A stretch of DNA of 33,986 nt, taken from contig DATKVN010000036.1 of assembly GCA_035530055.1 (NCBI GenBank), positions 1 to 33,986 on the forward strand, read 5' to 3'. This DNA comes from a bacterium (lineage in GTDB: Bacteria > UBA6262 > WVXT01). Below the pieces are notes generated by a model. It was not told the DNA's origin. It did not search any database and saw nothing but the letters and a program-made list of their open reading frames with translations. The number at the start of each line of letters is the position of its first letter. Position 1 is the stretch's first letter. A program made the position numbers and the translations under genes. This document shows positions 13,033 to 27,176 of the stretch, piece after piece.

Positions 13033-13041
13033 TAATAAGAA

Positions 13042-13067
13042 ACCACCGGAGGATAGTCCCCGGTGGT
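13042..13067 (-). terminator. Terminator of the c-di-GMP operon
   Basis: ACCACCGG/CCGGTGGT (13042-13049 and 13060-13067) with inner GGA/TCC forms a strong hairpin about 50 nt after the diguanylate cyclase stop. On the minus strand it is followed by TTTCTTATTATT, a moderately U-rich tail. Confidence 0.65.
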
Positions 13068-13116
13068 CAATTTAAACTCACCAGTCTGTCCGATATAAAA
13101 GAGAAACACTCCAATT

Positions 13117-14847
13117 TTATACTTTGCTTTCCTCCCTGGAGCTTGTCCAGGACTTCACCTGGTTCCTGCCGTGCTCTTTAACCCAGTATAGAGCCTTGTC
13201 TGCCCTTTCCACCATCTCCTCGGCACTTATATCCTTCTCATAAAGAGAAATCCCTATACTCAGGGTCAGTAGGAATTTACCATTAACTACTTTAAAGCGA
13301 TGACTTTCCAGACTCTTCCTGATTCTTTCAGCCGTCCTAAGAGCCAAATTTTCATCTACTCCAGGCAAAATTATGGCGAATTCCTCTCCTCCATAACGAG
13401 CAACTGTATCAATGTCGCGAAGGTCTTTTTTAAGAATCTCAGCAACTTTCACTAAAGCTTTATCCCCCATGGGATGACCGTAAGTATCATTGAACTGTTT
13501 AAAATGGTCCAGATCCACCATTAAAAGAGCCAAAGATAAATTTTGCCGCTCAGCTCGAGAGATTTCCTTCTCCAGACATTGATAAAAGAACCAATGTACA
13601 TAAAGGCCGGTCAAACCATCTATAATTATTTGATGATTGTAAGTAATATTGGCAACAATTATTGCCGCCTGGCTAGCAAGCGTTTCTATTATCCCCCGGT
13701 GTTCTCGTAGATAATTTCTTCTGTACCTCTTTGAATTTAAAAGAACCATTCCTACATTCCGATTTTTGTAAGTTAGGGGAACGAGTAAGAGAGAAGAGGG
13801 GCTGGCTGGTTTCTCCTTGAACAATAATAAATTCTCATACGTAGAATCTTGCAAAATCTCGGCTGCAGAGATGGGACTTGTAATTTTTGTTATTTCAGCA
13901 AAAACAGGGCCGTCTTTACTAAACCTGAAGTCCCTGGGGAGGTCGGGCTTAACATCTACACCGGTTCCTAAAATTAAGTCACCTGTTTTATCTTCAACTG
14001 TTAATAATGCCCCTGACTTTGCTTCCACTGTATCCAGGAAAGCCTTAAGAATAGTGTCCAGAATTTCTCCCTTATGCTCAGTAGTAGTGGCAGTCTTGCT
14101 AAGATTTTCCAGTAGCTTTAGATTCTTATCAGACGATTCCCGCTTTCTTAGAATCTGCGTCTTATATATAAAGAACAATCCAACAAGCATACTACCAAAA
14201 AGAAGAAAAAGCGTAATTTGTTTGCGCGTAACCAGATTTCTCTTTTCAGAAATTCCTAGAGGCAATTCTTTTGGTTCATCTAATTTCCCCTTAGCAACTT
14301 CTCTTTTAATTACTTCAATATCCTGAGCTATTTTGGTTATCTCCTGACTTATTAAATCCCGAGCTATCCTGGGTATTTCTCGGCTTACTGGCCTATCTGG
14401 CTCGCGTTTCTCCTCTTCACTTACAACTATACTTTTTACCTCTTCGATGCGACCGGTTTCATTTCTAATCTTTTGTATACAGCCTATTGCTTCCTGATTT
14501 CTTGGATTCAAATCTAAAACGTGCACAAGCTTGCTAATAGCAATTTCATAATTCTGCTCCTGGTACTCCTTAATAGCCTGATTGAGAAGTTCCTGCTCTT
14601 CTCTTCTCTTAAGTTCATTTCCTGTCATATTGACGTATTTTAGGGTTAATTTATTTTGTGGATTCAACTCCAGCGCTTCCAGAAAATTTTTTAGCGCAAG
14701 CTCATACTCTTCTGCCCTAAAATACTTGACACCTTCTTCGAAATAGTATTTCTCTCCTTCTGTTTCCAGCATTTCCAGACGCGCAGACTGAATAGCCAGT
14801 GAGAGAAACACTAACATAAATAGAAAGATATTACCCAATACTTTCAT
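13117..14847 (-). CDS. Membrane diguanylate cyclase with TPR, GAF and GGDEF domains
   Basis: This enzyme is predicted to make cyclic di-GMP from two GTP at the inner membrane. The 576 residues comprise a signal/anchor helix (about 5-22), two TPR-like repeats (about 33-66 and 86-119), a charged linker (130-200), a transmembrane helix (about 211-229), a GAF-like domain (about 245-400) and a GGDEF domain (about 405-565). The active site GGEEF lies at 486-490. The RxxD inhibitory site (RDID, 477-480) is five residues before it, so product inhibition is likely. The TPR part should face the periplasm. The ATG follows GGGAGGAATA and lies inside the upstream 45-aa ORF (17-nt overlap). It is the last gene of the operon that begins with a c-di-GMP riboswitch. 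Confidence 0.9.
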   Translation of the reverse strand: MKVLGNIFLFMLVFLSLAIQSARLEMLETEGEKYYFEEGVKYFRAEEYELALKNFLEALELNPQNKLTLKYVNMTGNELKRREEQELLNQAIKEYQEQNYEIAISKLVHVLDLNPRNQEAIGCIQKIRNETGRIEEVKSIVVSEEEKREPDRPVSREIPRIARDLISQEITKIAQDIEVIKREVAKGKLDEPKELPLGISEKRNLVTRKQITLFLLFGSMLVGLFFIYKTQILRKRESSDKNLKLLENLSKTATTTEHKGEILDTILKAFLDTVEAKSGALLTVEDKTGDLILGTGVDVKPDLPRDFRFSKDGPVFAEITKITSPISAAEILQDSTYENLLLFKEKPASPSSLLLVPLTYKNRNVGMVLLNSKRYRRNYLREHRGIIETLASQAAIIVANITYNHQIIIDGLTGLYVHWFFYQCLEKEISRAERQNLSLALLMVDLDHFKQFNDTYGHPMGDKALVKVAEILKKDLRDIDTVARYGGEEFAIILPGVDENLALRTAERIRKSLESHRFKVVNGKFLLTLSIGISLYEKDISAEEMVERADKALYWVKEHGRNQVKSWTSSREESKV

Positions 14848-14968
14848 TATTCCTCCCTTCTTCGAGATTCTTTTTTATAGTCCGCTCTAATCGGGCCGGC
14901 TGGAGCCATTCTGTATCTTTCGCCTCTCGGCAAATCTGAAAGGTTTTCTCGGTGATCTCTTTCGGCAT
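14831..14968 (-). CDS. Small 45-aa protein, translationally coupled on both sides
   Basis: I do not recognise this gene. It reads MPKEITEKTFQICREAKD... and ends ...LEEGRNNESIG. Its ATG overlaps the stop of the tandem-receiver gene (TGATG), and its 3' end overlaps the cyclase start by 17 nt. Without it, 120 nt would be left between two otherwise tightly packed genes. The product is charged, with no signal peptide or membrane segment, and is likely helical (ITEKTFQICREAKD, then LERTIKKNLEEG). It has one Cys and one Trp. A role as a small regulator or adaptor for the neighbouring receiver or cyclase is only a guess from position. It could also serve mainly to couple translation. Confidence 0.6.
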   Translation of the reverse strand: MPKEITEKTFQICREAKDTEWLQPARLERTIKKNLEEGRNNESIG

Positions 14969-15735
14969 CAACTGTGGAGAGATTCGCTGTCTATTAGGGT
15001 AGGGTATGTCCTTTTCTGGCTTTGCACTTCTTTGATCACTTTAACCAATTTCTCTACGTCCAAGAAAGGCTTATATAAACAGGTGTAGGCTCCCTTCTTT
15101 AATAAATCTCCTACAAGGCTCAGTGAAGAATAGTCAATCATCATTACCACTTCTATACCTGGTTTAATCTTTTTGACTGTCTCCAGGATTTCTATACCCT
15201 CCACTCCTGCCCTCCCTGTATCCAGAAGCACAACATCAAAATCATTCTCCTGAACCATCTCAATTGTTTCATCTCCATCTTTAGCCACTAAAACCCGGTA
15301 CCTTCTTTCTGCCAACATGTTCCTCAAAGCCCCCCGGTCTTGCGCATTATAATCAACTATCAACACTGAGGGGGCTTCGAGGATAGACTCAACAGTGTGG
15401 ACAAGCTCTTTCACATTGAAGGGTTTATTCACTACAACTTCTACTTCTGAGTCCGGAATCTCCGTCATTTCTTTTTTCTCGCCCGTAGAATTCACTATTA
15501 TTACCGCCATGGACGGGCAGAGCCTTTTCATTACTTTAAAATCCCATACGCCACTTACTCCGGGTATTTGCCAAGGCGTAAGCAAGACATCGAAATTTTT
15601 CCTCTTTAAAAGCCAAATTGCCTTGTCTCCATCTTCTACTATACTCACATTATAGCCTTTCCTCTCAAAAATTTCCCTGAGAGGTTCCATAAGATCGATT
15701 CTACCGTCTACGATAAGGATGTTTGTGTTCTTCAT
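14968..15735 (-). CDS. Tandem receiver protein, first receiver degenerate, no output domain
   Basis: The 255-aa protein consists of two response-regulator receiver domains (about residues 4-118 and 123-238) and a short tail. In receiver 1 the phospho-acceptor position is Pro54 (LLTPWQIPG instead of LLDxxxPG). Only Asp10 of the acidic pair remains, although Lys104 of the KPF motif is kept, so phosphorylation is unlikely. Receiver 2 keeps Asp172 and Lys222 (YKPF), but its acidic pair reads Asp128-Tyr129 and the usual Pro at +4 is Ala. There is no DNA-binding or enzymatic domain, so it probably acts through protein contacts, perhaps with the cyclase encoded downstream. The start overlaps the PorV stop by 4 nt (ATGA). 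Confidence 0.85.
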   Translation of the reverse strand: MKNTNILIVDGRIDLMEPLREIFERKGYNVSIVEDGDKAIWLLKRKNFDVLLTPWQIPGVSGVWDFKVMKRLCPSMAVIIVNSTGEKKEMTEIPDSEVEVVVNKPFNVKELVHTVESILEAPSVLIVDYNAQDRGALRNMLAERRYRVLVAKDGDETIEMVQENDFDVVLLDTGRAGVEGIEILETVKKIKPGIEVVMMIDYSSLSLVGDLLKKGAYTCLYKPFLDVEKLVKVIKEVQSQKRTYPTLIDSESLHS

Positions 15736-16877
15736 TCTCCTCCTCTCAACCAGTATTCCTCCAGAAGAAGACGATTTGCTTCTTTCATCATACTTATTGT
15801 CTTCTTATCTTCAGGATTTAACAATAGAATTTCACTGAATTTTCCAATTGCCTGGATATACTGTTTCTGCTCCAAGTACCCCATACCCTCTTCGTGAAGG
15901 GTGGCGATTAGAGAAGCAATCCTTGCCTCCTCTTCTTTTTCAATCATAACCTTCTCTTTTTCCCGCTCTGCTTCCGGTTCCCCAAAATAGAGCCCAATGC
16001 TAAACTGATGCGTGTCACCCAAAATCTTGTGCGGTGTGTAAGCGTAATCTAACCGCAAATTATTCCGCTTTAAGCCCAAACCAAATCTTACCCTATCCTT
16101 TATGTCGGGATCAAATTTGCCTCCAATTCTCACCGCAAGATAGTTTGTAATCCAGCTTTCAGCACCTAAACCAAGATAGACACTCTCATTGTTCAATTTG
16201 TTAAAGTCTAAAGTCAAAGTCAGTGGATTGCTAGGGAACAATTTATAAGCCAGTCCAAACCTGAAATTTAAAGGCAAACTCGCAGATTCTCTAATGAATT
16301 TTATTCTTGTGCCGATATTCTGGATATTGATGCCCACATTTAAATTGTCCACCCCGGTTTTGTAAAGGGCGCCCAGGTCGAGGGCAAGGGCATTGGCAAC
16401 CTCGTCATCCAGTTTCTCCCTGATAAACTTAAAACTCAATCCCCCTGACAGCCCTTTGATTAATTTTCTACCATAAGAAAAGGCCAAAGCGAGATCATAC
16501 GCGCTAACATCACCAGTAAGGATTCCTCCATCGTCACTGCCCTCGATATCTCCACCCCCTAAATAATAAATACTAAGAGCAAGAACCGAGTCGTTAATTG
16601 GATGGCTATAACCAAAAAAATGATACCCAATATCTTCGAACCATCTGTTATACATAAAGCCGACTTCTGGTCGCTCTATTTGTACAAGGCCGGCTGGATT
16701 CCAGTAAATTGCACTAATATCATCAGCCAGCGCTACATAGGCTTCACCCATGGCAAGGGGGCGGGCTCCTACTCCTATTTTAAGGAAGTCTAATCCCGTA
16801 GTAGAAGCAACGGATGGACACCGTTGCCCAATCAAAAACAGTACTAGAATGAGACTTAAAGTTACAATTTTTTTCAT
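15732..16877 (-). CDS. PorV/PorQ-like outer-membrane protein with C-terminal TPR
   Basis: The 381-aa protein starts with a signal peptide (about 1-24, hydrophobic stretch LSLILVLFLIG). A beta-barrel of the PorV/PorQ (UPF0164) type follows, recognisable from TTGLDFLKIGVGARPLAMGEAYVALADD and YWNPAGL near residues 26-63 and from repeated amphipathic strands up to about 300. A charged helix and a TPR-like unit (about 330-378, YLEQKQYIQAIGKFSEILLLNP) are appended. In type IX secretion PorV shuttles cargo at the outer membrane. The upstream gene encodes a protein with a type IX-like sorting domain, which fits a cargo/shuttle pair, but no other T9SS core genes are in the window. There is a 17-nt gap from the upstream gene, with only a weak ribosome-binding site. 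Confidence 0.85.
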   Translation of the reverse strand: MKKIVTLSLILVLFLIGQRCPSVASTTGLDFLKIGVGARPLAMGEAYVALADDISAIYWNPAGLVQIERPEVGFMYNRWFEDIGYHFFGYSHPINDSVLALSIYYLGGGDIEGSDDGGILTGDVSAYDLALAFSYGRKLIKGLSGGLSFKFIREKLDDEVANALALDLGALYKTGVDNLNVGINIQNIGTRIKFIRESASLPLNFRFGLAYKLFPSNPLTLTLDFNKLNNESVYLGLGAESWITNYLAVRIGGKFDPDIKDRVRFGLGLKRNNLRLDYAYTPHKILGDTHQFSIGLYFGEPEAEREKEKVMIEKEEEARIASLIATLHEEGMGYLEQKQYIQAIGKFSEILLLNPEDKKTISMMKEANRLLLEEYWLRGGE

Positions 16878-16894
16878 TGCCGTTTTTCAGTTTC

Positions 16895-17836
16895 TCATCT
16901 GATAATTACTACTTTTCCCGTCTGGTTCCCCTTATCACTCTCAATGCGATAGAGATAGAACCCACTGGATACTTTATTCCCTTCACTATCTTTTACGTTC
17001 CACTTTGCTTCCCCGGCCTCTTCTTCAAGAGTTGCCATTATCCTACCTTCAATATGAAATATTTTCACCGACGCACCTGAGGGAAGGTTAGTAAATGTGA
17101 TTTCAGTGTGACCCTCGCTCGGTTTAAAAGGATTAGGATAAACCTTGATAGAAGATGAAACCGGCTCGGGCTCAGGACAAATCCCTTCTGTCTCGTAAGA
17201 TATTACCAATTGGGGACGGTAGGATTCCCACTCCAATTCACTGGAAAGAAACCAAACTGCCTCATTGTCACAATTATGCTCCTTAAGCAAAAACCCGAAG
17301 TTAACGTATTTCCCTTCCAACCAATCCTTTATTGTGCGCGTCACATCCCAGGAAACCCACCCGTAGGCTCTGCCGATAAAAGATTTTGCACTCTCTAATT
17401 CCGAATCGAAGTCGCCCCCCGCCGTCCTCCAATTGCGCTTCTCTATACTCTGGTTCCAGGTTACTTCTTTGTCATTCCAGAAACCCGTAATTTTATGTAC
17501 ATAAATCACTCTCTTCTCATCGAAATAGTAGTCCTCTGCCAGACAGAGTTGTAATTCCGCCGAGGAAATAATTGCATCAGGAGGAATGGACGTCAGATCG
17601 AACCGAATAAGGATGCGTTTGGTATCTCGCTGCCCGACACCTATATTTTCCTTGCTTCCAAAGTTCTTCATCTCGTCTCCAAGACCTTTGGAAATATGAC
17701 TGTCTCGTGACTTCTCCGGCCCTGGCTGAATGGTCTGTTTCTTAGCATACGAGTAGGTAGAACTGCAAAATATTACCAGGGCACAGAATACTAATAAAGA
17801 CAGTAACTTTTTTTTCTTCCCCATAAAATTAACCAC
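16895..17836 (-). CDS. Secreted DNRLRE/CBM96-like protein with C-terminal sorting domain
   Basis: The export signal consists of basic residues and a hydrophobic stretch (LLSLLVFCALVIFCSS). A DNRLRE/disaggregatase-related (CBM96-like) domain of about 170 residues follows, with ILIRFDLTSIPPDAIISSAEL, EVTWNQS, WVSWDVTRTIKDWLEG and SYRPQLVISYE. The last about 85 residues begin VYPNPFKPSEG and end GNQTGKVVIIR, the FlgD-like/type IX sorting fold. The protein is probably exported and surface-attached, possibly binding polysaccharide. GTG at 17834-17836 has GAGG 6 nt upstream; ATG at 17824 is the alternative. It is the first gene behind the c-di-GMP riboswitch and terminator. Confidence 0.82.
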   Translation of the reverse strand: MVNFMGKKKKLLSLLVFCALVIFCSSTYSYAKKQTIQPGPEKSRDSHISKGLGDEMKNFGSKENIGVGQRDTKRILIRFDLTSIPPDAIISSAELQLCLAEDYYFDEKRVIYVHKITGFWNDKEVTWNQSIEKRNWRTAGGDFDSELESAKSFIGRAYGWVSWDVTRTIKDWLEGKYVNFGFLLKEHNCDNEAVWFLSSELEWESYRPQLVISYETEGICPEPEPVSSSIKVYPNPFKPSEGHTEITFTNLPSGASVKIFHIEGRIMATLEEEAGEAKWNVKDSEGNKVSSGFYLYRIESDKGNQTGKVVIIR

Positions 17837-17846
17837 TTTCTTCCTC

Positions 17847-17895
17847 AAAAAAAACCGATTTCTCTATCCAGCCCTACCGGATAGCAAAATCGGTT
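17847..17895 (-). terminator. Intrinsic terminator forming the riboswitch expression platform
   Basis: AACCGATTT (17887-17895) pairs with AAATCGGTT (17853-17861), with an inner TATCC/GGATA helix, and eight T follow on the minus strand. It lies between the aptamer and the first gene's ribosome-binding site, the classic position for transcriptional control by a riboswitch. Confidence 0.85.
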
Positions 17896-17900
17896 CCTAA

Positions 17901-17995
17901 GAAACTCTTCGGCAGCTCGGCTGGCATCCAAGTCCCGTGGCTTTGTGTCCCCCGATTTTTCCCCGATTATTCGGGAGTTACCTTTTCGGAGTTTC
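17901..17995 (-). promoter_or_regulatory. Cyclic di-GMP-I (GEMM-I) riboswitch aptamer
   Basis: The core reads GGGGACACAAAGCCACGGGA, then CCAGCCGAGCTGCCGAAG, close to the GEMM-I consensus GACGCAAAGCC...CAGCCGGGUUGCCGAA. P1 forms between GGTAACTC (17975-17982) and GAGCTGCC (17911-17918) with one A-C mismatch. An outer stem GAAACTC/GAGTTTC (17989-17995 with 17901-17907) closes it. The base equivalent to Vc2 G20 is G, which favours c-di-GMP over cGAMP; that numbering is from memory. Oddities are A instead of G in ACACAAAGCC, a very short P3-like arm, and a CCCGA/TCGGG hairpin with extra bases where the GNRA-capped stem is expected. Confidence 0.8.
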
Positions 17996-17998
17996 CGA

Positions 17999-18031: not shown

Positions 18032-18220
18032 CTAATCTTGAACCCTCTCCCTGCCGCCGTAAAGAGGATAATCGGAAAGACCTTTACCGTTTAGATATTC
18101 CTCAATGCCGGCGCAGGTTAAGCAGATATAATATCCGTCCATTTTCTTTACAAAATCTTTGGAAAATTTACCCGTGCATCTCTTGCAATAGAAAAGTTTT
18201 CTTTTTTTGTTCTTCTTCAT
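18032..18220 (-). CDS. Small zinc-ribbon-like protein
   Basis: This 62-aa basic protein has two CxxC pairs: FYCKRCTGKFS at about residues 10-20 and YICLTCAG at about residues 31-38. They are spaced like a zinc-ribbon knuckle pair. The N-terminus is Lys/Arg-rich (MKKNKKRK). No larger family is recognisable, so the function is unknown; nucleic-acid or protein binding is plausible. The ATG follows AAGGT at suitable distance. It has its own promoter-like sequence, a copy of the one driving the downstream kinase pair, and it ends just before the riboswitch. Confidence 0.7.
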   Translation of the reverse strand: MKKNKKRKLFYCKRCTGKFSKDFVKKMDGYYICLTCAGIEEYLNGKGLSDYPLYGGRERVQD

Positions 18221-18375: not shown

Positions 18376-18401
18376 AAAGACCCATTAAAAAATGGGTCTT
18401 T
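18376..18401 (-). terminator. Intrinsic terminator of kinase/regulator unit 1
   Basis: AAAGACCCATT/AATGGGTCTTT hairpin (18376-18386 and 18391-18401) followed by T-rich sequence on the minus strand, about 45 nt after the regulator stop. It is nearly identical to the terminator at 20367-20393. Confidence 0.9.
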
Positions 18402-18447: not shown

Positions 18448-19116
18448 TTAGTGCCTGCTGATGTAGCCCCTATTCAGTCCTTCCACCACTGCCTGTGCGC
18501 GGTTTTTCGCTCCCAGTTTTCTATAAATATGGTTAAGGTGGTTTTTGACCGTCTTTTCACTCACTGAGAACTTCTTTGCAATCTCTTTATTAGTTTTCCC
18601 AAAAGCCACTAACTTGAGGACTTTTACTTCTTTCTTTGTTAGATTGAGGCGTTTTGTCCCACTCAAAAAATCTGGCTTCCTTATGCCTTTTAGTAGTTTA
18701 TGCTCTATGCAGGATGGAATTGAAACCCCCTCTCTAAATACAGAACGGATGGTCTCTATCAATTCACCAGAGGGATAAGTCTTTATTACGTAGCCAGAAG
18801 CACCTGCCTGAAATGATTCGGTAATATGTGCTGCGTCCTCGTACATAGATAGCATGATAACGTGAACCTTTCTACATCTCTTTTTAATCTGGCGCGTCAT
18901 CCTTATCCCATTTGGACCAGGCAAGCTGATATCCATCAAAATCACATCTGGCTTCAATCTATCTGCCAATCCCAGGGCCTCGACACCATCTCTGGCTTCT
19001 CCAACTATCTTTATATCTTCATTAAGTTCCAATATACTTCGCAAACCTTCCCGGAAAAGTGCATGGTCGTCTGCTACGAGAATTCTAATTGTTTTCTTCG
19101 AGTTAACTTTACCCAT
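18448..19116 (-). CDS. NarL/FixJ-family response regulator (unit 1)
   Basis: This is a 222-aa transcription factor. An N-terminal receiver domain (about 10-125) has the acidic pair in LVADDHALFREGL, phospho-acceptor Asp62 in ILMDISLPGPNG and Lys in YVIKTYPSGE. A C-terminal LuxR-type helix-turn-helix (about 155-218) contains LTKKEVKVLKLVAFGKTNKE and SVSEKTVKNHLNHIYRKL. The ATG at 19114-19116 lies one base after the kinase stop, with GAGGAATAGG as ribosome-binding site. It is clearly paralogous to the regulator at 20440-21108. Its targets are unknown; the promoter at 18308-18335 is the nearest candidate. Confidence 0.93.
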   Translation of the reverse strand: MGKVNSKKTIRILVADDHALFREGLRSILELNEDIKIVGEARDGVEALGLADRLKPDVILMDISLPGPNGIRMTRQIKKRCRKVHVIMLSMYEDAAHITESFQAGASGYVIKTYPSGELIETIRSVFREGVSIPSCIEHKLLKGIRKPDFLSGTKRLNLTKKEVKVLKLVAFGKTNKEIAKKFSVSEKTVKNHLNHIYRKLGAKNRAQAVVEGLNRGYISRH

Positions 19117-19117
19117 C

Positions 19118-20218
19118 CTATTCCTCAAGCGGAATTTTTACCTTTATCTTGGTCCCTTGTCCCTTTTCAGTTTTAACAGTAAAGGCCCCTCCCAAAAGTT
19201 TTGCTTGCTCTTCCATTCCTATTAGTCCAAAATTCTTGGCATATTTACTCTGAGTTAAGGCTCTGTTTAAATCAAATCCTTTCCCATCATCTTCTATAAT
19301 AAGATGGAGATTTCTATTCTTATCAGTTCTTAATCTCAAATCTACATTCTTTGCCATAGCGTGTTTCTTTATATTGTTCATTGCCTCTCGGATAATTCGA
19401 TAGGTGCCTACCTGTATCTTCATGGGGAGACTCTCTTCCACTTTAAGATTTAAAGTAGCTGCAATCCCTGTCTTTCTGCGAAACTCTTCCAAATACTTTC
19501 TCAGGACAGTAACAAAGCCTGTTCTGTGAAATTTCGGGAGCCGCAAATCAAATATGACATGTCGTGTCGCCTTAATACCTTTTGCCAGCATCTTCCTTAG
19601 TGCCAATAGTTCCTTCTTTACCTTTTTTGGATTACCATCCAGAAGTCTCTCACAAAAGTCAATCTTCAAAAGTGAACTAGCTAAAGTCTGGGCTAAACCA
19701 TCGTGAATCTCCTGAGCCAATCTGTTCCTCTCCTCTGTAACTGTAACTCCCTTGTACAGCTCGACCAGTTGCTCGGTTCTCTCCTCTACTTCTTTCTCCA
19801 GTTCTATTGTATGTTCTTTCAATTTCTCTTCTGATTTCTTTTTTTCCGTAATATCGGAGATAATTGCGACGGCTCCATTAAATTTCCCCTCGTTGTTCAT
19901 AAGAGGAACACTACAGACCGAGAAGAACATGTCTTCCCCTCCCTTTGTCTTGCCTGTTAAAATATAATGTGATGATTTACCCTTAGTTCTCTTTTTGAAT
20001 TCACTTTCTATTGTCTCTTTACCTACCCTTCCAAAAAAAGAGCGAATATCCTTACCCAAAAGCTCATCCCTCCTGTAACCCGAGCTCTGGTATAACTTAT
20101 CATTCATAGAAGTTATCGTCATATTTTCATCGAGAATGCATACACCTTCACCCATATTTTCAAAAAACATTCTATATTTCCCTTCCAATTCTTCTGCCTG
20201 GTCAACTTTATCCACCAT
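19118..20218 (-). CDS. Cytosolic PAS sensor histidine kinase, NarL-partner type (unit 1)
   Basis: The 366-aa kinase has a PAS domain (about 12-128, ending in AIISDITEKKKSEEKL), a coiled-coil linker (130-158), a HisKA_3 dimerisation domain with phospho-acceptor His172 in AQEIHDGLAQTLASSLL, and a HATPase domain (REAMNNIKKHA, DDGKGFDLN, GLIGMEEQAKLLGG, GQGTKIKVKIP). No membrane segment is visible, so it senses an internal signal through PAS. The start is ATG at 20216-20218 with AAGAAAGGAATAA upstream. It is co-transcribed with the regulator that follows. It shares clear similarity along its length with the kinase at 21110-22204. Confidence 0.93.
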   Translation of the reverse strand: MVDKVDQAEELEGKYRMFFENMGEGVCILDENMTITSMNDKLYQSSGYRRDELLGKDIRSFFGRVGKETIESEFKKRTKGKSSHYILTGKTKGGEDMFFSVCSVPLMNNEGKFNGAVAIISDITEKKKSEEKLKEHTIELEKEVEERTEQLVELYKGVTVTEERNRLAQEIHDGLAQTLASSLLKIDFCERLLDGNPKKVKKELLALRKMLAKGIKATRHVIFDLRLPKFHRTGFVTVLRKYLEEFRRKTGIAATLNLKVEESLPMKIQVGTYRIIREAMNNIKKHAMAKNVDLRLRTDKNRNLHLIIEDDGKGFDLNRALTQSKYAKNFGLIGMEEQAKLLGGAFTVKTEKGQGTKIKVKIPLEE

Positions 20219-20297
20219 TTTTTATTCCTTTCTTAATCAAGTCTGTAACTATCAGAGCCTTCCTGAAGAAAAAAATTAGTTCCTTTTTTTGTATGTA

Positions 20298-20326
20298 ATT
20301 TTACTATAAATCCCCCATTTTTACAA
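20298..20326 (-). promoter_or_regulatory. Promoter of kinase/regulator unit 1
   Basis: TTGTAA (20321-20326), a 17-nt spacer and TAAAAT (20298-20303) lie about 80 nt before the kinase ATG. The arrangement repeats at 18308-18335. Confidence 0.6.
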
Positions 20327-20366
20327 TAGGTCTAACGAATAATCTTATAAAATTTTTTGACAAAAA

Positions 20367-20393
20367 AAAGACCCATTTTTTAATGGGTCTTTT
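20367..20393 (-). terminator. Intrinsic terminator of kinase/regulator unit 2
   Basis: A hairpin made by AAAAGACCCATT on one arm and AATGGGTCTTTT on the other (20367-20376 region with 20382-20393), with a T-run on the minus strand, about 47 nt after the regulator stop. It is a near copy of the terminator at 18376-18401. Confidence 0.9.
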
Positions 20394-20439
20394 AGGTAAA
20401 TAACTCGAAGATTACATACAAAAAGAGAACAAAAATATT

Positions 20440-21108
20440 TTAATCCTTGCTAATGTAATCTCTCCTTAGCCCTTCTACCACTGCCTGTGCGCGGTTTTTC
20501 ACCCCCATTTTTCTATAGACATGATTAAGGTGGTTTTTAACCGTCTTTTCACTCACGAAGAGCTTCTTGGCAATCTCTTTATTAGTTTTCCCGGAAGCCA
20601 CTAACTTGAGGATTTTTACCTCTTTCTTTGTTAGATGGACATTTTCTGTCCCGCTCAAAAAATCTGGCTTCCTTATACCCTTTAGTAGTTTATGCTCTAT
20701 AAGGGGTGGGATGGAAACCCCTTCTCTAAATACAGAACGGATAGTCTGTATTAATTCACCAGAGGGACTGGTCTTTATTACGTAGCCAGAAGCGCCTGCC
20801 TGAAATGAGTCGGTAATATGTGCCGTGTCCTCATACATAGACAGCATAATAACGTAAACCTTTCGATATCTCTTCTTAATCTGGCGCGTAATCCTTATCC
20901 CATTTGGACCAGGCAGGCTGATATCCATGAGAATCACATCCGGCTTCACTCTCTTTGCCAACTCGAAGGTTTCCGCGCCATCCTTGGCTTCTCCAACTAT
21001 CTTTATATCTTCCTCAAATTCCATTACTCTTCGCAAACCTTCCCGGAAAAGTGCGTGGTCATCTGCTATGACAATTCTAATTATTTTCTTCAGGTTAACT
21101 TTACCCAT
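20440..21108 (-). CDS. NarL/FixJ-family response regulator (unit 2)
   Basis: The 222-aa paralogue of the regulator at 18448-19116 has the same architecture: receiver with IVIADDHALFREGL, Asp62 in ILMDISLPGPNG and a conserved Lys in YVIKTSPSGE, then a LuxR-type HTH with LTKKEVKILKLVASGKTNKE and FVSEKTVKNHLNHVYRKMG. The recognition-helix regions of the two paralogues are almost identical, so they may bind the same sites. The ATG at 21106-21108 lies one base after the kinase stop. It is followed by a strong terminator, so the pair forms its own unit. Confidence 0.93.
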   Translation of the reverse strand: MGKVNLKKIIRIVIADDHALFREGLRRVMEFEEDIKIVGEAKDGAETFELAKRVKPDVILMDISLPGPNGIRITRQIKKRYRKVYVIMLSMYEDTAHITDSFQAGASGYVIKTSPSGELIQTIRSVFREGVSIPPLIEHKLLKGIRKPDFLSGTENVHLTKKEVKILKLVASGKTNKEIAKKLFVSEKTVKNHLNHVYRKMGVKNRAQAVVEGLRRDYISKD

Positions 21109-21109
21109 C

Positions 21110-22204
21110 CTATCCCCCAAGCGGAATTTTTACCTTTATCTCGACTCCTTGTCCCTTTTCAGTTTTAACAGTGAAAGCCCCTCCAAAAAGTTTCGCCTGC
21201 CTTTCCATCCCCTTTAGTCCAAAATGCCTGGCATATTTTTTCTTATTCAAGGCTTTCTTTAAGTCGAATCCTTTCCCATCATCTTTAATGATAACGTGAA
21301 GATTCTCGTGCTTATCAGTTCTTAATCTCGCATCCACATTCTTTGCCATAGCGTGTTTTCTTACATTATTCATCGCCTCTCGAATAATTCTATAGGCACC
21401 TACCTGTATATTTGTGGAGAGACTCCTCTCCAGTTTAATATTTAAGTTACATATAATCCCTGTCTTTTTGCAAAACTCTTTAAAATACTGTCTGAGAACC
21501 GTGGCAAAGCCCGTTCTGTGAAAGTTCGGTAGCTGCAAACCAAATACGATATCCCGGTTCAACTTAATGCTTTTCCTAAGCATCTTTCGCAATTCCCCTA
21601 GCTCTGCCCTTACCTTTTCCGGATCTTTGTCCAGAACTTTCTCACAAATCTCAATCTTCAAAAGGGCAGTTGCCAGGTCCTGAGAGCAAAAATCGTGAAT
21701 CTCCCGCGCCAATCTATTCCTTTCTTCTGTAACTCCCACTCCCTTATACAGATCGACGAGTAACTTGGTTCTCTTATTTATTTCTTTCTCCAGCTCTAGT
21801 GTGCGTTCTCTTAACTTATCCTCTAATTCTTTCCTTTCTGTAAAATCGGAAATAATTGCGATAGTCCCATCAAATTTCCCTTTTTTGTCAAAACGAGGAG
21901 CACCACTAACGGATAGGACTATTTCTTTCCCTTTCTTTGTTCTAACCTTTACAGTATAACGCGAAGAGTAACCCTCCATCCTTTTTTTCAACTCCTTTCT
22001 TACTCTATCTTTACTCTTACCTATAAGAAAGGGGACAACATTCTTACCCAGAATTTCATTCTTCCTGTAACCTGTAATTTCACAGACTTTACGATTAACA
22101 AAAATTGGCACCATCTTCTTATTAGTAACGCACAAACCTTCTCCCATATTTTCAACGGAAACTCTATATTCCTTCAATTCTTGTAATTGATCCTTCTTAT
22201 CCAC
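21110..22204 (-). CDS. Cytosolic PAS sensor histidine kinase, NarL-partner type (unit 2)
   Basis: This 364-aa kinase has PAS (about 10-125), coiled coil (125-155), HisKA_3 with His170 and HATPase regions (REAMNNVRKHA, KDDGKGFDLK, GLKGMERQAKLFGG, GQGVEIKVKIP). The H-box reads REIHDFCSQDLATALL, whereas its paralogue has the more standard IHDGLAQTLAS. His and the adjacent Asp are kept but the next residues differ, so kinase/phosphatase balance may differ. The start is GTG at 22202-22204, supported by AGGAGA 8 nt upstream. No membrane helices are seen. It is expressed from a good promoter at 22279-22307. Confidence 0.92.
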   Translation of the reverse strand: MDKKDQLQELKEYRVSVENMGEGLCVTNKKMVPIFVNRKVCEITGYRKNEILGKNVVPFLIGKSKDRVRKELKKRMEGYSSRYTVKVRTKKGKEIVLSVSGAPRFDKKGKFDGTIAIISDFTERKELEDKLRERTLELEKEINKRTKLLVDLYKGVGVTEERNRLAREIHDFCSQDLATALLKIEICEKVLDKDPEKVRAELGELRKMLRKSIKLNRDIVFGLQLPNFHRTGFATVLRQYFKEFCKKTGIICNLNIKLERSLSTNIQVGAYRIIREAMNNVRKHAMAKNVDARLRTDKHENLHVIIKDDGKGFDLKKALNKKKYARHFGLKGMERQAKLFGGAFTVKTEKGQGVEIKVKIPLGG

Positions 22205-22900: not shown

Positions 22901-27152
<4,252 letters not shown>

Positions 27153-27176
27153 AATATTATCCTTCAATGAATACAC

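Follow-up and report, generated by a model that had tools for sequence, protein, structure and literature searches.

Cd1 of Clostridioides difficile is the OFF-switch model among the class I cyclic di-GMP (c-di-GMP) riboswitches, termed c-di-GMP-I or GEMM-I (PMC9262584, PMC6366702), and a linkage of GEMM switches to genes for c-di-GMP turnover was noted when the class was discovered (PMC7266159). In Geobacter, a cyclic GMP-AMP (cGAMP)/GEMM-Ib regulon with the Hypr GGDEF enzyme GacA has been described, and G. sulfurreducens carries 17 GEMM switches (PMC6456294). We have analyzed a 33,986-nt stretch of contig DATKVN010000036.1 (the window), from a bacterium of an uncultivated lineage (UBA6262), in which a c-di-GMP-I aptamer and an intrinsic terminator precede genes for a surface protein with a type IX secretion system (T9SS) sorting domain, a PorV-family outer-membrane protein, a tandem receiver and a diguanylate cyclase. 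The T9SS is known mainly from Bacteroidota and their relatives. On balance, we slightly favor the reading that these genes form a T9SS-like surface-export unit, the cyclase included, which is turned OFF through the c-di-GMP-I riboswitch and is part of a larger riboswitch regulon. The first-pass annotation of the window had stated that this exact gene set was not known as a described system, and the literature searches that combined the gene set with a c-di-GMP riboswitch indeed found nothing specific; likewise, the literature searched yielded no case of direct c-di-GMP riboswitch control of a T9SS, of a T9SS-like translocon or of its carriers.

The same annotation had recognized a GEMM-I-like aptamer followed by a terminator, and both were recovered. 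With cmscan, a single c-di-GMP-I aptamer was found within the window, as an RF01051 match at 17992-17908 of the minus strand that scored 41.1 bits against the curated cut-off of 35 bits (E = 6.9e-5 for the window and 8.1e-7 for the whole genome), and the terminator stem with its eight-U tail follows it. The elements of this leader are:

17908..17992, minus strand: c-di-GMP-I (GEMM-I) riboswitch aptamer (RF01051)
17982, minus strand: ligand-contact G (G20 in the Vc2 numbering; position 20 is G)
17901..17996, minus strand: P1 closing stem, GGAAACUC (17996-17989) with GAGUUUC (17907-17901), from sequence and folding
17949..17977, minus strand: P1b hairpin with its 3' strand duplicated, from sequence
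17977-17971, minus strand: P1b 5' strand, CUCCCGA
17966-17961, minus strand: P1b 3' strand, copy 1, UCGGGG
17960-17949, minus strand: P1b 3' strand, copy 2, AAAAAUCGGGGG, with the canonical P1b 3' strand at 17955-17949
17886..17959, minus strand: predicted antiterminator, AAAAUCGG (17959-17952) paired with CCGAUUUU (17893-17886), from folding of partial transcripts
17847..17896, minus strand: intrinsic terminator, stem 17896-17852 and eight-U tract 17854-17847, -25.5 kcal/mol

Judged by its sequence, this RNA is a real riboswitch of the c-di-GMP-I family, and c-di-GMP would be its ligand. The conserved 3' segment GCUGCCGAA agrees with the RF01051 model, one pair of the aptamer core is U-A where the consensus has C-G, a change of both partners, and outside the model P1 is a perfect 7-bp stem, which is also predicted by folding and is kept in the two relatives compared (L011, from genome G003, and L012, from G002). 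The orthologous aptamers of these two species, which differ very little from that of the window, score 40.9 and 42.6 bits. A cGAMP (GEMM-Ib) aptamer was rejected, since it needs an A at position 20, where the window aptamer has its G. The aptamer is atypical: P1b carries a 15-nt loop instead of a GNRA loop, the receptor of such a loop is missing too, and the second hairpin is shortened. The enlarged loop and the shortened hairpin account for its low score, the second-lowest among the 13 RF01051 sites (37-81 bits) of the window genome (G000; 1.68 Mb in 106 contigs, 96% complete). The GNRA loop and its receptor are common in c-di-GMP-I aptamers but not universal, so that their loss lowers the expected affinity rather than the case for RF01051 membership. 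The low score and the missing features would also suit a relic, i.e., a degenerate and unresponsive aptamer followed by a terminator that acts as a fixed attenuator. Such a relic is improbable in view of the conservation of the element, because the identity to L012 is 97% over the aptamer and P1, against 69-78% over the nearby spacer, the P1b segment (17980-17943) is unchanged (38/38 identical), and both P1 and the ligand-contact G have been retained.

The window terminator begins 12 nt past the aptamer and has no strand in common with the aptamer or with P1. The only conserved competing helix found was the predicted antiterminator, whose two 8-nt strands are identical in the three species; pairings of UAUCGGA with UCCGGUA in the 5' leader are present in the window species only, and were discarded as not conserved. 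When partial transcripts of 147-151 nt were folded, the antiterminator came out ahead of the canonical aptamer, with a margin of 3.5-5.3 kcal/mol for the window and of 2.7-6.5 kcal/mol for L012. After completion of the terminator 3' arm the terminated fold had an advantage of about 10-12 kcal/mol; for the full-length RNA, a refolding barrier of 5.7-11 kcal/mol was computed. Part of AAAAUCGG also belongs to the canonical P1b 3' strand; a bound ligand should therefore leave CCGAUUUU available to the terminator, as expected of an OFF switch. Furthermore, the additional UCGGGG copy (17966-17961) is an alternative partner of the P1b 5' strand, and hence a register shift seems to be part of the design of this RNA. 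From these predicted structures, the window switch is probably OFF. It would thereby follow the same strand logic as Cd1, with which it shares the aptamer family, the ligand-contact G, a P1 stem, a separate terminator and an antiterminator formed with a strand taken from the aptamer (PMC9262584). However, the competing strand in the window is the second P1b 3' copy, located in the enlarged loop, whereas that of Cd1 is the aptamer-stabilizing strand; in addition, the window P1 is strong, and the genes concerned encode export functions and a cyclase rather than the flagellar functions found in the case of Cd1.

Several observations count against the OFF assignment. In L011 the antiterminator was not favored, and stayed within 1 kcal/mol of the canonical aptamer in the folding of partial transcripts; the pairing of the lower terminator arm into the aptamer averages 0.41 when the 5' end differs; and 2-24% of shuffled controls matched the helix energy, which denotes a modest specificity. 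Moreover, the autonomous upper stem of the terminator could displace the antiterminator, the affinity of an aptamer that has no GNRA loop may be low, and the predicted sign derives from folding energies that do not include tertiary contacts. The weakness of the antiterminator in L011 also speaks for the opposite sign, in which the same operon would be under an ON switch and c-di-GMP would promote both its own synthesis and surface-protein export, a positive feedback leading to a bistable commitment to the attached state. An ON layout is indeed found at five other switches of the window genome (C34, C65, C39, C69 and C9 of G000) and at one of the sister genus (G004:C95), where the 3' strand of the aptamer doubles as the 5' arm of the terminator, so that the bound aptamer should prevent termination; this kind of layout is the published pilM layout (PMC9262584). 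At the window leader, the ON alternative is unlikely, given that the terminator is set apart from the aptamer and from P1, and that no conserved pairing was found by which the bound aptamer could block the terminator. In four other leaders (L030, L031, L038 and L077, at G000:C7, C77, C89 and G001:C138), the terminator 5' arm is an imperfect second copy of the aptamer 3' strand (GCCGGGTTGCCGAA-like), which represents another strand-duplication design.

The genes behind the switch and the boundaries of the unit are:

16895..17824, minus strand: gene 1, DNRLRE/CBM96 surface protein with a T9SS type A sorting domain and a signal-peptide-like N-terminus
15732..16877, minus strand: gene 2, PorV/PorQ-family outer-membrane protein with a C-terminal TPR
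14968..15735, minus strand: gene 3, tandem receiver protein (PF00072 twice)
13117..14847, minus strand: gene 4, membrane diguanylate cyclase (PF00990, 4.7e-46; GAF; TPR)
13041..13068, minus strand: terminator 3' of the operon, after the cyclase
18376..18401, minus strand: terminator of the upstream two-component genes

The gene families named by the first-pass annotation were all confirmed by profile searches. Gene 1 matched NF033679 (100.8 bits, cut-off 34), TIGR04183 (38.4 bits, cut-off 23), PF24517 and PF18962, and a viral-contig search with its surface protein gave no match; gene 2 matched NF033709 (229 bits, cut-off 90) and PF19572. Receiver 1 of gene 3 lacks the phospho-acceptor Asp (LLTPW), and receiver 2 retains it (LLDTG). 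The intrinsic terminator precedes the first gene, for which the most likely start is the ATG at 17824 and not the TTG at 17848, a position at the terminator tail. The terminator at 18401-18376 separates the unit from the upstream two-component genes, and between the two bracketing terminators there are a 62-aa open reading frame (ORF), the riboswitch and the four genes, which are presumably co-transcribed. The 62-aa ORF (18032-18220, minus strand), located downstream of the 18401-18376 terminator and upstream of the riboswitch, encodes four Cys in two CxxC motifs and is kept in L011 and L012 (DNA 88.9% identical), with no Pfam match.

The order riboswitch, sorting-domain gene, PorV, tandem receiver and cyclase is the same in L011 and L012, i.e., in three species with the window, and the fourth genome of the genus (G001) lacks this cyclase. 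An apparent frameshift in the cyclase of L012 was traced to a run of N, a scaffold gap in the assembly. Five tightly packed genes had been predicted initially, with the suggestion that this order be sought in related genomes; what the two related species share is the order of four, and the fifth, a 45-aa ORF (14831-14971), was dropped, as it is truncated in L011, where a stop follows some 26 codons, has no matching start in L012, and drifts like spacer (68.9% identical to L012). The operon consequently consists of four genes with a 120-nt gap (14967-14848) before the cyclase, and the sole certain overlap of a start with the preceding stop is that of the PorV and receiver genes at 15732-15735, since the other proposed overlaps hinge on the rejected ORF. 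The gap is non-coding and drifts in the relatives, which, together with the lack of the cyclase in G001, would be in keeping with a cyclase that is a mere neighbor with its own promoter in the gap, the control by the switch then being confined to genes 1-3 (surface protein, PorV and receiver). We regard this arrangement as quite improbable, because neither a sigma-70-like promoter on the minus strand nor a terminator was found in the gap, the gene order is conserved in three species, and the terminators bracket the whole stretch.

From its residues, gene 4 is an intact canonical GGDEF cyclase of predicted activity. A hydrophobic N-terminal segment is followed by TPR, a second membrane segment, GAF and GGEEF, a topology in which the TPR would face the periplasm. 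The metal- and GTP-binding residues are intact (GGEEF, DLDHFKQFND), and the RxxD inhibitory site that had been reported as intact is present as RDID at 13419-13408, five residues N-terminal of GGEEF (13392-13378). The selectivity position is an Asp (GHPMGD), of the c-di-GMP type, and therefore a Hypr GGDEF (cGAMP synthase), which would need a Ser there, was discarded; on the specificity residues of the aptamer and of the enzyme, cGAMP signaling was rejected for the cyclase operon. The genome resembles that of Geobacter in having many GEMM switches, tied to extracellular structures, but the window aptamer and enzyme carry c-di-GMP rather than cGAMP residues, and the enzyme gene is itself behind a switch. 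The linkage of a c-di-GMP riboswitch to a downstream diguanylate cyclase gene is uncommon but not new in kind, as it is shared with the GEMM-linked turnover genes; the difference is that here the cyclase gene stands at the end of an export operon. The whole genome has only five GGDEF domains, so that gene 4 should account for a sizeable part of its capacity for c-di-GMP synthesis. Among the four full GGDEF domains of G000, the sole non-Asp selectivity residue is an Asn (GHLTGN; L100, G000:C70:1047-1496), and the Hypr-type Ser is absent from all four although A-type GEMM switches exist.

GEMM-I sites number 8-16 per genome in the four genomes of the genus (G000-G003), and one in each of the two genomes of the sister family. 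A switch is located directly 5' of the start of a large protein with a match to TIGR04189 (T9SS translocon Sov/SprA) in all four genus genomes (G000:C81, G001:C186, G002:C47 and G003:C1); one SprA homologue is present in each of five genomes, with a trace in G005, and the complete homologue of G002 matched with 162 bits (E = 1e-47). Behind other switches there is a sorting-domain protein and then a PorV-family gene (G000:C7, G003:C130 and G003:C65), or the PorV-family gene comes first (G000:C9, G001:C51, G001:C82 and G002:C55), and the single switch of the sister genus is likewise 5' of a sorting-domain protein and a PorV-family gene. All the PorV-like proteins tested behind switches exceed the PorV_fam cut-off. 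A PorV or sorting-domain gene is among the first two genes at 4 of 12 loci in G000, for which the chance probability is 0.002-0.012 if a chance of 5-8% per locus is assumed, as estimated from the genome counts of both types of gene. The PorV-family matches amount to 13-30 per genome in G000-G005 and often adjoin sorting-domain genes, possibly as cargo-specific carriers. Taken together, these sites suggest that T9SS-like export in the genus is governed by a regulon of c-di-GMP riboswitches, through which the messenger probably controls the whole export system.

As in the T9SS, a PorV-family protein adjoins a sorting-domain protein and a SprA homologue is encoded in the genome; the location of these components behind c-di-GMP riboswitches and the multiplicity of PorV-family proteins set the genus apart. 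The identification of the export route is weakened on three counts. The SprA match is under the TIGR04189 equivalog cut-off of 200 bits. PorU was not found, with no PF01364 (C25 peptidase) match in G000 and with NF033707 matching the sorting-domain end only. Finally, GldM was not found with TIGR03517, a model that was silent in control genomes too. The system is therefore called T9SS-like, and not T9SS. The SprA-like protein was recognized only by the NCBIfam model, the Pfam scan and a PDB search being without match. By eye, no T9SS-like genes were seen in the translated ORFs downstream of the GEMM-I loci of five distant genomes (G009, G027, G036, G037 and G040); in another distant genome, a GEMM-I switch is 5' of the gene for a secreted, subtilisin-like protein whose C-terminal domain is sorting-like (L086 213-289 and 388-2316, G032:C12).

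The ligand-contact position varies among these switches. That of the sister genus has an A (L078 635-726, G004:C95; L079 342-431, G005:C111), and its ligand may hence be cGAMP. A tandem GEMM-I element (L032 3137-3215 and 3374-3456, G000:C14:29136-29455) has an A in the first and a G in the second aptamer, and reads as cGAMP-type followed by c-di-GMP-type; it is kept in G001 and G003, and in G002 the first is likewise A. Orthologous switches also differ, with an A in G001:C94 and G002:C60 and a G in G000:C89 and G003:C102. Elsewhere in the window, two adjacent and similar pairs of PAS histidine kinase and NarL-type regulator are located at 18448-22204 (minus strand), where the ORFs of L012 suggest three pairs, and a 998-aa RtcB-like RNA ligase ORF (24180-27176, minus strand) seems to be split by an in-frame intein (CISGDS ... 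VVSN-C).

In the OFF reading that we prefer, RNA polymerase would transcribe the aptamer first. At low c-di-GMP, the P1b 5' strand would pair with the nearer UCGGGG copy, so that the second copy could capture the lower 5' arm of the terminator through the antiterminator pairing, with read-through as the outcome. At high c-di-GMP, the bound aptamer would keep the second copy as the canonical P1b 3' strand, the terminator arm would be freed, and transcription would stop before gene 1. c-di-GMP made by gene 4 and by the other cyclases might thus bind the nascent leader and lower the levels of the surface protein/PorV pair, in which the PorV-family protein would act as the carrier of the DNRLRE surface protein, as well as those of the cyclase. 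The cyclase would then have two brakes in negative feedback, the I-site as a fast enzymatic one and the riboswitch as a slow transcriptional one. Elsewhere, ON switches could increase the expression of further export components, and sets of surface proteins might be exchanged as c-di-GMP rises. The feedback module proposed by the first-pass annotation is supported in so far as c-di-GMP would control an export operon together with a synthase, but it is not self-contained, because the genome has its 13 switches and five GGDEF domains and the fourth species does without the cyclase. The most extensive version, a genus-wide c-di-GMP regulon that covers the SprA-like translocon, PorV carriers and cargo and includes an OFF switch of the cyclase operon through P1b duplication with negative feedback, is put forward tentatively.

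A switch before the SprA homologue in the four genomes, and before pairs of sorting-domain and PorV genes in two families, offers a testable tie between surface export and the decision between attached and free-living states in an uncultivated lineage. With the cyclase operon comes a compact feedback loop, the sign of which can be decided in vitro without culturing the organism, and a natural switch that changes register by means of a duplicated hairpin strand would be useful for studies of co-transcriptional folding.

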